A DNA stretch of 33,678 nucleotides, taken from positions 1-33,678 of the forward strand of contig JALRJE010000072.1 of the NCBI GenBank assembly GCA_023268965.1. The letters are read 5' to 3'. A program made the translations under genes and the position numbers. The notes under the pieces were generated by a model. The model was not told the origin of the DNA, did not search any database, and saw only the letters and a program-made list of their open reading frames with translations. This stretch comes from Crocinitomicaceae bacterium (lineage in GTDB: Bacteria; Bacteroidota; Bacteroidia; Flavobacteriales_D; Crocinitomicaceae). Each line of letters starts with the position of its first letter. The first letter of the stretch is position 1. Of the stretch, positions 24,524 through 27,801 are shown one piece after another.

Positions 24524-25336
24524 TTAGATGCTGGATATGAGTTCTTTCATGATTTGTGTCATTTTCGGTTCTTGTCGGCTCGCTACCTCAATAACATCCT
24601 GGACACTCACTTTTTTGATTTTACCAGGCACACCAAGGTCAGTAATAATCGATATGGCAAAACAAGGGATACTCATATGGCGCGCAACAATGACCTCTGG
24701 TACAGTAGACATACCAACGGCATCGGCTCCGATGGCCCGCACATATTTGTATTCAGAGGGTGTTTCAAGGGTTGGGCCAGTGAGGCCTGCATAGCAACCT
24801 ATAGAAACGCGAATACCGAGGTTTTTGGCGATATCATTTGCTTTATCGATCATTTCTTGATCGTAAGGGTCACTCATGTCTGGAAAGCGGGGTCCGAGTT
24901 CATCGATATTTGGACCAATGAGCGGGTTCCCTGGAAAAAGATTGATGTGATCATTCATGATCATGATTTCTCCAACCTCAAATTCTGGATTCACACCTCC
25001 TGAAGCGTTACTTACAAATAGGCGTTCAATACCGAGTAGTTTCATCACGCGGACAGGAAAGGTCACTTGTTGAAGCGTGTAACCTTCATAATAATGAAAG
25101 CGTCCTTGCATGGCAACAACATTTTTTCCGCCGATGCGCCCAAAAATGAGTTTGCCTGAGTGGCTCTCAACGGTAGAAATGGGAAAGTGAGGAATATCTT
25201 GGTAATTAATTTCGTCGATGATTTCGATCTCTTTGACTAAACCCCCAAGGCCCGTACCTAAAATAATACCAATTGTAGGCTGAACGTTTGTTTTGCTTTG
25301 AATGTAGGCGGTACTTTCTTTAATTTGAGACAACAT
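24524..25336 (-). CDS. Purine nucleoside phosphorylase (PNP I, inosine/guanosine type)
   Basis: The trimeric PNP family cleaves purine nucleosides with phosphate for salvage. Motifs are the phosphate-binding IILGTGLGG and HSGKLIFG. LFVSNASGGVNPEFEVGEIM is followed by MSTVPEVIVARHM, which contains the conserved Glu/Met active-site region. The start at 25336 (MLSQIKESTAYIQSK, 270 residues) overlaps lpxK by 17 bases. Longer in-frame starts would lie deeper in lpxK. The lpxK-PNP order is common in Bacteroidota. Confidence 0.95.
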   Translation of the reverse strand: MLSQIKESTAYIQSKTNVQPTIGIILGTGLGGLVKEIEIIDEINYQDIPHFPISTVESHSGKLIFGRIGGKNVVAMQGRFHYYEGYTLQQVTFPVRVMKLLGIERLFVSNASGGVNPEFEVGEIMIMNDHINLFPGNPLIGPNIDELGPRFPDMSDPYDQEMIDKANDIAKNLGIRVSIGCYAGLTGPTLETPSEYKYVRAIGADAVGMSTVPEVIVARHMSIPCFAISIITDLGVPGKIKKVSVQDVIEVASRQEPKMTQIMKELISSI

Positions 25337-26336
25337 AAGTGCTGATAAATTGATTAAATGCATTTTGATCCGACCATTCGAGCTCAAAAGTCAACAAATA
25401 CCAGGGGTATTTTTGTAAGTCTTCAGCGCCCAACAAAGGCTGGATTTTAACCCAATCTTTGGCGGTAGTAACAATTGCAGAATTTGTAGTTGCAAAGGTA
25501 TCAAAAAAATGATGAATTTCTTCCATATCCATTGGTGTGTAGGTATGGTGATCACGAAAAGTACGATGTCTAATGTTGGTGCTTGGTGGAAATGCCTCAT
25601 TGAGTTGTTTTGGAAGCGCTACGCCGCTCACAATGAACACCTCATTGATTTGTTCAAGAATTCTTCCTTTGGATTGCAGGGCATGGTAAGTATACCGGGA
25701 AAAAAATACGGGAATTTGCCATTTTTGATATTGCTTCTTCAGCTCGTTTAGATCAAAAGTTTCAAATTCCGGACATTTAGTAATCACAATTGCATCGGCG
25801 CGTTTTAATCCACTCATTGGTTCGCGTAGCCTGCCTGCTGGTAAGAGGTAATCCTCATGCACAGGTTGATCATAAACACTAAGTACGATATTTAGCCCGG
25901 CCTTGACATAGCGGTGTTGAAACGCATCGTCGAGTAAAATGAGGGAAGCGGGTTGTTCTTTTCTTAGGCGATCTATTCCGATACTACGTTTTTCGCAAAC
26001 TGCAAAATGGGCTTTGTCTTTGTATTGATTAAACAGCATTTGGGGTTCGTCCCCAACATGGGCAGCAGTTGAATTTGTGGAAAGCGCAATAAACCCTTTT
26101 GTTTTCCGACCATAACCCCGGCTTAATACTTGAACTTGGACCAGGGGTGAAAGCAGCTCGATGAGGTAGCCAACGTGTGGAGATTTACCTGTACCACCAA
26201 CGTTCAGGTTTCCGATACAAATGGACTTACCTGAGATGTGTTGGGTTTGTAGAATACCGAGATCAAAAAACAGATTGCGCACCCATATAGCCAATCCATA
26301 GAGGAGTGAAAGAGGGTAGAGCGCTAGTTTGCGCAT
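25320..26336 (-). CDS. lpxK: Tetraacyldisaccharide 4'-kinase (lipid A 4'-kinase)
   Basis: LpxK phosphorylates the 4' position of the lipid A disaccharide at the inner-membrane face. The P-loop is ICIGNLNVGGTGKSPHVGYL, preceded by a membrane-associating N-terminal helix (LYPLSLLYGLAIWVRNLFFD). The DDAFQHRYVKAGLNIVL segment carries the conserved DDGFQH-like catalytic motif, here with Ala for Gly. RLREPMSGLKRADAIVITK also fits. The start at 26336 gives 338 residues and lies one base after the DUF4956 stop. Confidence 0.95.
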   Translation of the reverse strand: MRKLALYPLSLLYGLAIWVRNLFFDLGILQTQHISGKSICIGNLNVGGTGKSPHVGYLIELLSPLVQVQVLSRGYGRKTKGFIALSTNSTAAHVGDEPQMLFNQYKDKAHFAVCEKRSIGIDRLRKEQPASLILLDDAFQHRYVKAGLNIVLSVYDQPVHEDYLLPAGRLREPMSGLKRADAIVITKCPEFETFDLNELKKQYQKWQIPVFFSRYTYHALQSKGRILEQINEVFIVSGVALPKQLNEAFPPSTNIRHRTFRDHHTYTPMDMEEIHHFFDTFATTNSAIVTTAKDWVKIQPLLGAEDLQKYPWYLLTFELEWSDQNAFNQFISTYVVSN

Positions 26337-26337
26337 G

Positions 26338-27009
26338 TTATTGCACGTGATAGTCAGAATATTCTTGTTCGTCGGCATAGTAATAAATACGCACCATTGC
26401 AGTATCGTTCAAGAAGTCAATTTTACCGACTTCTACGCGGTTGATGGTGAGTCCGGTTCTTTTCTCTAAATCTGCTTTGAGGAGGTCTTGGTTTTCCGGT
26501 TTAATGAGGTCTATACGCTCATAGTTGATGGTCTTGCGTGTTTCGTGTTTCATCAGTACTACGTTTTCTAGAACATAGGTGAGTAGTACGACGGCAACAT
26601 TAATAACCGCTACCTCTGAAATACTAAGTTCATTCGATGCCAATGCATTCACTACACTTAGGCCGATGACCATGAATAAATAGGTCATCTCTTTGATTTC
26701 AATGGCATCGGTACGGTATCGGATAATTCCAAAAATAGCAAACAACCCTAGCCCCATTCCGGTATCAATATCCATTTGCATTAGCCCAAAACATAAGAAA
26801 AAGGTAATGGTACCAATCAAATAGTAGGTGAACAAGTAATCTTTGCGGCGTGTTTTCGTGTAGTAAAGTACACGAATTAAAATGGTCAAAAAGAGAAGGT
26901 TGATTCCGAATCTGATTAAAAGTCCGTAAAAGTCTTCACTAAACCAGGTGATGGTATTTGGCGAGATTGCTTTTTTGAGCGGAAAGAAAAATAAAAGGTC
27001 AGTGAGCAT
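26338..27009 (-). CDS. DUF4956-family membrane protein
   Basis: The 223-residue integral membrane protein has an N-terminal hydrophobic stretch and about four further helices. These lie near residues 30-48 (LLIRFGINLLFLTILIRVLY), 57-75, 82-120 and 130-148. The family hallmark is the conserved loop FAIFGIIRYRTDAIEIKEM between helices. A ~70-residue soluble C-terminal domain follows, rich in charged residues. Biochemical function is unestablished. It overlaps the upstream VTC-like gene by 11 bases; this pairing recurs in bacteria and suggests a joint complex. Confidence 0.88.
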   Translation of the reverse strand: MLTDLLFFFPLKKAISPNTITWFSEDFYGLLIRFGINLLFLTILIRVLYYTKTRRKDYLFTYYLIGTITFFLCFGLMQMDIDTGMGLGLFAIFGIIRYRTDAIEIKEMTYLFMVIGLSVVNALASNELSISEVAVINVAVVLLTYVLENVVLMKHETRKTINYERIDLIKPENQDLLKADLEKRTGLTINRVEVGKIDFLNDTAMVRIYYYADEQEYSDYHVQ

Positions 27010-27754
27010 GGTTGATTTTGTTTAAAAAAAGCAGCTTCTTTTTGAAGCGATTAAATTTGAGTACTTCTTCGCCGTAGATTTCTACACTTCCAATGCAATA
27101 TTTGGAGAGGCGATATGGTCTGATTCGTTCCTTTTTCATGAGTTTGTAAAAAGGGGAATTGCGGTCTAGGTCTTCTTGTTTGAGTTCTGCAATCACCAAC
27201 TGATCAAAATTGCGCTGGACTTCTCCCATATGAAAGTGGATGTTGAAGTCGAGGGTTAATCTTTCTCGGGAGGTTCTAGAAACGAGCGTGATGCGCTGAA
27301 AAGCATTCCACATCGTTGGTTTTAATTGTGTGTCTTCGTTGAGTTGTCGGCGCAAAAAATCACGTTCCTTTTCGTCCTGAAGTTCATTGAAATCATTGGT
27401 GAGGATTCTGCGCTTGTCGGTTCTTCCCTTCATCTTGTGCTTGATTTCCAAAAAGAAGATATTGGACTCCACATATTTGCGGATACGCACCTTGAATCGA
27501 TCGGTTTTGCCATTGTGGTGATCGCGAAAAAAGGAAAATGTAGCATCGTCGAAATAAAGGCTTTCATAATGAGGCAGCATGGTTCCTTCAACTTTTAACG
27601 CGCGATAGTCCGGAGCTAAAATGGGTAGAAAACGCAGGAGGTCTTCTTGGCGGAAGGCAAACTTGGTGTCTATGCGATTCATTAGGTTGACGTCGGCCAT
27701 TTCTCTAAGAAAAATGGGGTCAAACTCTTCGATTGCTGTTTTAATACTACTCAT
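26999..27754 (-). CDS. VTC-domain protein (CYTH/triphosphate-tunnel fold), putative polyphosphate polymerase
   Basis: The protein matches the VTC domain of yeast Vtc4, a triphosphate-tunnel metalloenzyme that makes polyphosphate. Visible tunnel features are the paired basic/acid elements [48 protein letters not shown], and the metal-type glutamate in [10 protein letters not shown]. The final strand is [15 protein letters not shown]. Length is 251 residues from ATG 27754; a TTG at 27757 is less likely. Yeast Vtc4 has SPX and membrane domains that are lacking here; the DUF4956 partner may supply the membrane part (inference). Polymerase activity is not shown. Confidence 0.85.
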
Positions 27755-27764
27755 CAATATCTTT

Positions 27765-27772
27765 CAAAAATA
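27765..27772 (-). promoter_or_regulatory. Bacteroidota -7 promoter motif (TATTTTTG) for the 11-gene operon
   Basis: This exact TAnnTTTG match on the minus strand lies 10 bases before the VTC-like ATG at 27754. It shares a 51-base divergent intergenic region with the purT promoter. Confidence 0.55.
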
Positions 27773-27793: not shown

Positions 27794-27801
27794 TACATTT
27801 G
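27794..27801 (+). promoter_or_regulatory. Bacteroidota -7 promoter motif (TACATTTG) for purT
   Basis: This exact TAnnTTTG match lies 4 bases before the chosen purT ATG at 27806. It supports that start over the in-frame ATG at 27782, which would lie upstream of the promoter element. Confidence 0.55.

Follow-up and report, generated by a model that had tools for sequence, protein, structure and literature searches.

The analyzed window, a DNA stretch of 33,678 nt from a freshwater bacterium of the Crocinitomicaceae (Flavobacteriales), carries on its minus strand a gene for a VTC-domain protein, which is followed by one for a DUF4956 membrane protein and then by lpxK. The features of this locus are as follows.

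27794-27801, plus strand: TACATTTG, a mirrored candidate −7 box that precedes purT (direct reading)
27765..27772, minus strand: TATTTTTG, a candidate −7 box upstream of the VTC gene, matching TAnnTTTG (direct reading)
26999..27754, minus strand: VTC-domain, polyphosphate-polymerase-type triphosphate tunnel protein of 251 aa with its ATG at 27754 (PF09359)
26999..27009, minus strand: stretch of 11 nt shared by the VTC and DUF4956 reading frames (direct reading)
26338..27009, minus strand: DUF4956 membrane protein of 223 aa (PF16316)
25320..26336, minus strand: lpxK (PF02606, 2e-69; TIGR00682), a lineage-specific neighbor outside the conserved cassette described below

We take TAnnTTTG to be the −7 box consensus of Bacteroidetes. 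The arrangement described in a first-pass annotation of this DNA, namely VTC-fold and DUF4956 genes that overlap by 11 bases and lead into lpxK, can be read directly from the sequence and the PF09359/PF16316 assignments. The DUF4956 stop codon ends at 26338, and the likely ATG of lpxK lies one base on, at 26336. In many close relatives, lpxK encodes 338 aa and begins 1–2 nt past the DUF4956 stop, and the 352-aa lpxK reading frame is therefore regarded as an in-frame upstream over-extension. Among 61 related loci, the 11-nt overlap was kept in 32, and lpxK was found next to the pair in 45, all of the Crocinitomicaceae type. This retention indicates that the overlap and the lpxK order are not a chance arrangement of reading frames. 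Further downstream on the same strand lie genes for a purine nucleoside phosphorylase, a gatB-like protein, two thioredoxin-like proteins and an lpxH-like protein.

VTC is the sole Pfam domain of the 251-aa protein (PF09359, E=1.3e-25, 90.8 bits against a cut-off of 23), and no SPX domain was detected in it by Pfam. NCBI already names it a ‘polyphosphate polymerase domain-containing protein’, and its closest named record is UBA952 (96% identity). A profile built from 58 VTC homologues matched yeast Vtc4 (PDB 3g3q) at E=1e-14, with its significant PDB matches being Vtc proteins only. The AF2 model shows a closed tunnel (pLDDT 95.5, pTM 0.91), and in a Foldseek comparison of this model with the PDB, Vtc4, Vtc2 and Vtc3 chains took all of the first 13 places (E about 1e-11 to 1e-9), with ygiF, SaTTM and CyaB-type tunnel enzymes ranking next. 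The alignment of the 58 sequences has 20 invariant columns. When residues were mapped onto native Vtc4 numbering by profile alignment, the equivalents of K200, R264, R266, K281, R361, R373, E426, K428, S457 and K458 were found invariant in all homologues, including the R264/R266/E426 triad, whose replacement inactivates yeast VTC (PMC9911596). The tunnel basic residues, the possible loss of which had been raised in the first-pass annotation, are thus kept. Because the Vtc4 tunnel residues are invariant and yeast Vtc subunits head both the structural and the profile matches, a polyphosphate-polymerase-type site is predicted to be retained.

Several positions depart from Vtc4: H283 is replaced by a lysine (K107), and the invariant R86 and K88 correspond to alanines (A260 and A262) in the yeast protein. 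These departures, together with the many activities served by the CYTH/TTM superfamily tunnel fold, the triphosphatases among the weaker fold matches and the presence of PPK1 in many genomes as well, would fit a tunnel enzyme with another activity, such as a tri- or polyphosphatase or reverse transfer to a nucleotide or protein, in which case the pair would degrade or use polyphosphate or triphosphate. We consider this unlikely, as the protein groups with the VTC polymerases, and not with the CYTH phosphatases, in the Pfam, profile and fold searches alike.

The partner protein matches PF16316 over the whole model (positions 1–169 of 169, E=6e-56), which is its sole Pfam match. Its AF2 model (pLDDT 87) has helices at residues 25–52, 56–78, 83–100, 105–123 and 130–151, four or five of which would be membrane helices, followed at the C terminus by a beta-alpha-beta-beta domain of ferredoxin/ACT-like fold. 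This domain had been called basic in the first-pass annotation but proved slightly acidic, with 11 K/R versus 14 D/E in residues 152–223. The RYRT motif (R97/R99), whose loop had been pointed to as a candidate interaction surface, sits at the end of helix 3 and shows the highest conservation in the family: among 63 sequences, R99 is present in 100% and R97 in 98%; Y49 and G88 are also (nearly) invariant. Conservation of two arginines in helix 1, R33 and R46, is limited to the DUF4956 subclass of the window, in which they resemble the arginines described in TM1 of yeast VTC (PMC9911596). Searches of the PDB by sequence profile and by fold returned no significant solved homologue and no channel fold for DUF4956; VTC complex chains were absent from its best 50 fold matches and from its profile matches, and no homology to the Vtc1 membrane domain was detected.

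Kinship of DUF4956 to MgtC is likely, judging from remote sequence similarities. The window protein itself has no match to MgtC (PF02308) in Pfam. This model weakly matches four DUF4956 homologues (E 4e-5 to 1e-3, below the curated cut-off) and 5 of the 63 alignment members (likewise below it), with some DUF4956 membrane domains aligning over nearly the whole MgtC/SapB model, and hhalign of MgtC against the DUF4956 membrane domain gave P=1.7e-4 and a probability of 49%. In four genomes (L214–L217, same phylum), the extra matches of the MgtC search all proved to be DUF4956 genes in the vicinity of VTC, which suggests that DUF4956 is a remote relative of MgtC. The two families also share a cytoplasmic ACT-like C-terminal domain, whereas only DUF4956 has the RYRT motif; a streptococcal DUF4956 homologue has independently been described as combining a membrane domain of the MgtC type with an ACT domain in the cytoplasm (PMC12345266).

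Co-occurrence of the two genes was calculated in 247 Bacteroidia genomes, of which 137 have DUF4956, 122 have VTC and 121 have both. DUF4956 was thus present in 121/122 genomes with VTC versus 16/125 without it (p=5e-51, uncorrected for phylogeny), and the sole VTC genome lacking DUF4956 (G224) has its VTC gene at a contig end. For 129 of 136 VTC genes, a DUF4956 gene lies on the same strand at a distance of ≤1.5 kb, with VTC being first in 120. Similarly, in 61 loci fetched separately from named genomes, the order VTC-DUF4956 was constant, with an overlap of usually 11–20 nt. The pairing of VTC with DUF4956 is very tight and specific. Long DUF4956 frames in two genomes (G008 and G238) were considered as natural VTC-DUF4956 fusions and rejected, as they represent alternate-frame read-through of the VTC gene. 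DUF4956 is not strictly dependent on VTC, because 16 genomes carry it without VTC. All 16 have PPK1 (p=0.02, a phylogenetically biased value driven by few families), which weakly favors a polyphosphate link.

PPK1, whose family is unrelated to VTC, makes the same product that is proposed here, polyphosphate. The expectation that ppk would be absent where the pair is present did not hold, since PPK1 was found in 90/122 VTC genomes (74%) versus 105/125 others (84%, p=0.06). This indicates that the pair is neither PPK1-dependent nor a general PPK1 replacement, and substitution for PPK1 was rejected as a general rule. In the own assembly of the window (G000; 127 contigs, 95% complete), neither PPK1 nor PPK2 was matched; most siblings of this genome have PPK1, and PPK2 was found in none of the siblings searched. 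VTC would be the only recognized polyphosphate synthase of this genome, provided that ppk1 has not been lost in assembly.

Outside Crocinitomicaceae-type genomes, a recurrent gene set surrounds the pair, consisting of CotH, c5, c6, VTC, DUF4956 and DUF2490. The members besides the pair are as follows.

CotH: secreted CotH-domain protein (PF08757), kinase-like, in many cases carrying type IX sorting domains
c5: lipoprotein of about 133 aa with a lipobox-like N terminus
c6: secreted protein of about 180 aa with a signal-peptide-like start, repeat-like
DUF2490: outer-membrane barrel (PF10677)

One genome (G272, locus L120) carries the full series, CotH-CotH-c5-c6-VTC-DUF4956-DUF2490, and its genes overlap. 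In Flavobacterium, the order is CotH-c5-VTC-DUF4956-DUF2490, or this order with no CotH gene in the vicinity. At the genome level, CotH was present in 119/122 VTC genomes versus 25/125 others, and c5 in 102/122 versus 8/125. In the window's genus, the pair stands with lpxK, and CotH, c5 and DUF2490 stand at a second locus, at which c5 and DUF2490 were adjacent in 16/16 genus members searched and mostly divergent from a CotH gene of ~1000 aa. In the own genome of the window, the second locus is composed as follows.

Contig C54 (L101): CotH of 1020 aa, c5 of 148 aa and DUF2490 of 236 aa

The 1020-aa CotH protein contains lamin-tail, CotH, TSP3 and CHU_C domains, and in the PDB a chitobiase-type module was its sole match. 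G162, which belongs to the family of the window's genome, has none of VTC, DUF4956, CotH and c5 but retains PPK1; three further genomes (G002, G011 and G015) lack DUF4956, VTC, CotH and c5 together, and other members of their families carry the set. The parts are split in the own genome and yet are retained or lost as a group, which is the strongest argument for regarding the cassette as one system. A Bacteroides control genome has VTC and DUF4956, and CotH is absent. As a separate observation, family f29 (L049/G028 and L056/G105) has c5-c6-DUF4956-DUF2490 in this order, with no VTC and no gap at its place.

As far as it is set by lpxK, the envelope-operon context proposed in the first-pass annotation is not supported: the link to lpxK applies only in Crocinitomicaceae, whereas elsewhere the CotH/c5/DUF2490 cassette provides an envelope setting. 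A functional tie of the pair to lpxK/lpxH, for example in phosphate modification of lipid A, would draw on the lpxK gene that follows the pair in the 45 Crocinitomicaceae-type loci and on the lpxH-like gene further downstream. Nevertheless, pairs of other Bacteroidia lie away from lpxK and have CotH, c5 and DUF2490 instead, and the pair is also present in Deinococcus. The lpxK adjacency being lineage-specific, we rejected this tie and regard it as highly improbable.

Based on the genes, fold, residues, co-occurrence and gene order observed, we infer an enzymatic activity, a complex and a direction of transport, and see roughly an even chance that the two proteins jointly represent a bacterial equivalent of the eukaryotic VTC polymerase, in which the VTC protein makes polyphosphate and DUF4956 docks it and receives the chain. 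The soluble tunnel enzyme would produce polyphosphate from NTP at the cytoplasmic face of the inner membrane, and the translationally coupled DUF4956 protein, with its MgtC-like membrane domain and cytoplasmic ACT-like domain, would dock the enzyme and take up the chain. The chain would most likely cross the membrane along conserved arginines, namely R33 and R46 in helix 1 and the terminal R97 and R99 of helix 3, and polyphosphate might then serve the envelope cassette of the CotH kinase-like protein, c5, c6 and the DUF2490 barrel. A conduit role for DUF4956 is suggested by the near-obligatory pairing, the envelope partners including an outer-membrane barrel, and the arginines of the membrane part. 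It is weakened by the lineages having DUF4956 without VTC, by the lack of a channel homologue, by the restriction of R33 and R46 to one subclass, and by results in Streptococcus intermedius, in which deletion of the VTC homologue SIR_1593 did not abolish aggregation or Pel, while deletion of the DUF4956 and CotH homologues altered both (PMC12345266). The Bacteroides genome that has the pair but no CotH likewise speaks against the overall proposal.

Less probably, though it deserves serious consideration, VTC makes polyphosphate and DUF4956 is its sensor, anchor or regulator and not a conduit; DUF4956 would balance phosphate or ATP in an MgtC-like manner, with its ACT-like domain binding a small ligand, and polyphosphate would stay in the cytoplasm while the cassette tunes production of a surface polymer. 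The weak MgtC similarity and ACT-like fold are consistent with this, as are the persistence of DUF4956 without VTC, the failure to find a channel fold, and the S. intermedius homologue, an MgtC plus ACT protein whose deletion changes Pel level and aggregation (PMC12345266). However, the near-obligatory pairing with a polymerase and the links to secreted, lipoprotein and outer-membrane partners are better explained by envelope crossing, and the (nearly) invariant RYRT arginines also argue against a purely regulatory DUF4956.

Building on the conduit proposal, a further step can be imagined that we regard as a long shot: VTC/DUF4956 would thread polyphosphate to the periplasm, c5 and DUF2490 would carry it outward, and type IX-secreted CotH would draw on the exported polyphosphate, rather than ATP, when it modifies surface proteins or polymers, with the chain acting as substrate or as source of phosphoryl groups. 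The scarcity of ATP outside the cell would, on this speculative link between polyphosphate and CotH, be the reason for polyphosphate serving as the donor.

Compared with the eukaryotic VTC complex (Vtc1/Vtc3/Vtc4, a polymerase-translocase), bacterial VTC has the tunnel fold and the invariant catalytic residues in common, and a membrane partner is likewise present almost without exception. In contrast, the bacterial pair has no SPX domain, its polymerase and membrane parts are separate genes, its membrane part is the MgtC-like DUF4956 and not the three-helix domain of the Vtc1 type, and its predicted site is the plasma membrane and not the vacuole. If the conduit proposal is true, about half of the sampled Bacteroidia would have a membrane-coupled VTC-type polyphosphate machine distinct from PPK1, which would make polyphosphate of the envelope or the extracellular space accessible to genetics, suggest what two uncharacterized families, DUF4956 and DUF2490, might do, and hint at the source from which secreted kinases of the CotH family take their phosphoryl groups outside the cell.

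The families themselves, and their trio at Gram-positive Pel loci, are already known. CotH, PPP, DUF4956 and DUF4832 have been listed as accessory genes of Gram-positive Pel loci (PMC7112168), as have SIR_1591-1594 of S. intermedius (PMC12345266). Those loci hold the same three families (CotH, VTC-type polymerase and DUF4956) side by side, whereas the Bacteroidia set has the extra c5 lipoprotein, c6 and the DUF2490 barrel. Pel families were absent from the 25 most frequent Pfam families listed (112 neighbors; 128 rarer families lie beyond these). The trio was stated in 2025 not to be found outside Pel (PMC12345266); in the present analysis, it is frequent in Bacteroidia and also present in Deinococcus. 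The three genes lie side by side, or almost so, in Flavobacterium, other Bacteroidia and Deinococcus, and are distributed over two loci in the window's genus. Among open-licence papers, the literature on CotH with polyphosphate, DUF2490 and DUF4956 was scant and held no description of the Gram-negative cassette, and nothing useful was found on PPK-independent bacterial polyphosphate with the cassette genes. As far as the searchable literature goes, the wide occurrence in Bacteroidia, the c5, c6 and DUF2490 additions, the two-locus dispersal in the window's genus and the Deinococcus occurrence appear to be unreported.

Outside Bacteroidota, an annotated plasmid of Deinococcus taeanensis carries CotH-VTC-DUF4956, with no pel genes in the annotated stretch. 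On a plasmid of Deinococcus sp. QL22, VTC-DUF4956 adjoins acid phosphatase and phnDCE genes; on one of Nitratireductor, DUF4956-VTC adjoins genes for an inorganic phosphate transporter and a phytase-like esterase; and plasmids of Shinella and Aminobacter have DUF4956-VTC-phytase-like esterase. These phosphate-related neighbors would fit a polyphosphate role of the pair. On the Alphaproteobacteria plasmids (L228, L229 and L231) the gene order is reversed, with DUF4956 before VTC and then the phytase-like esterase. A locus described in C. perfringens (CP4_0460-0464; PMC2879425), in which VTC and CotH stand with genes called tubulin-like, probably represents the same set. Its ‘tubulin/FtsZ GTPase’ genes (222–226 aa), reported as membrane-located and standing beside VTC genes and cotH, probably encode misannotated DUF4956 proteins.

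Several minor observations concern the cassette and its genomes. The c5 gene is tandem-duplicated, giving two c5 domains in a reading frame of ~250 aa, at G030:C35:52245-52976, G137:C5:174219-174953, G007:C54:12575-13297 and others. Some Crocinitomicaceae-type MAG contigs (among L129, L143, L147, L155, L162 and L170) bear implausible names, such as Chryseobacterium gleum, Chitinophaga pinensis and Sphingomonadales. In B. thetaiotaomicron, the DUF4956-DUF2490 pair BT3498-BT3499 is iron-responsive, being listed at −7.6 (PMC10434189), and this pair is a convenient genetic model of the cassette.
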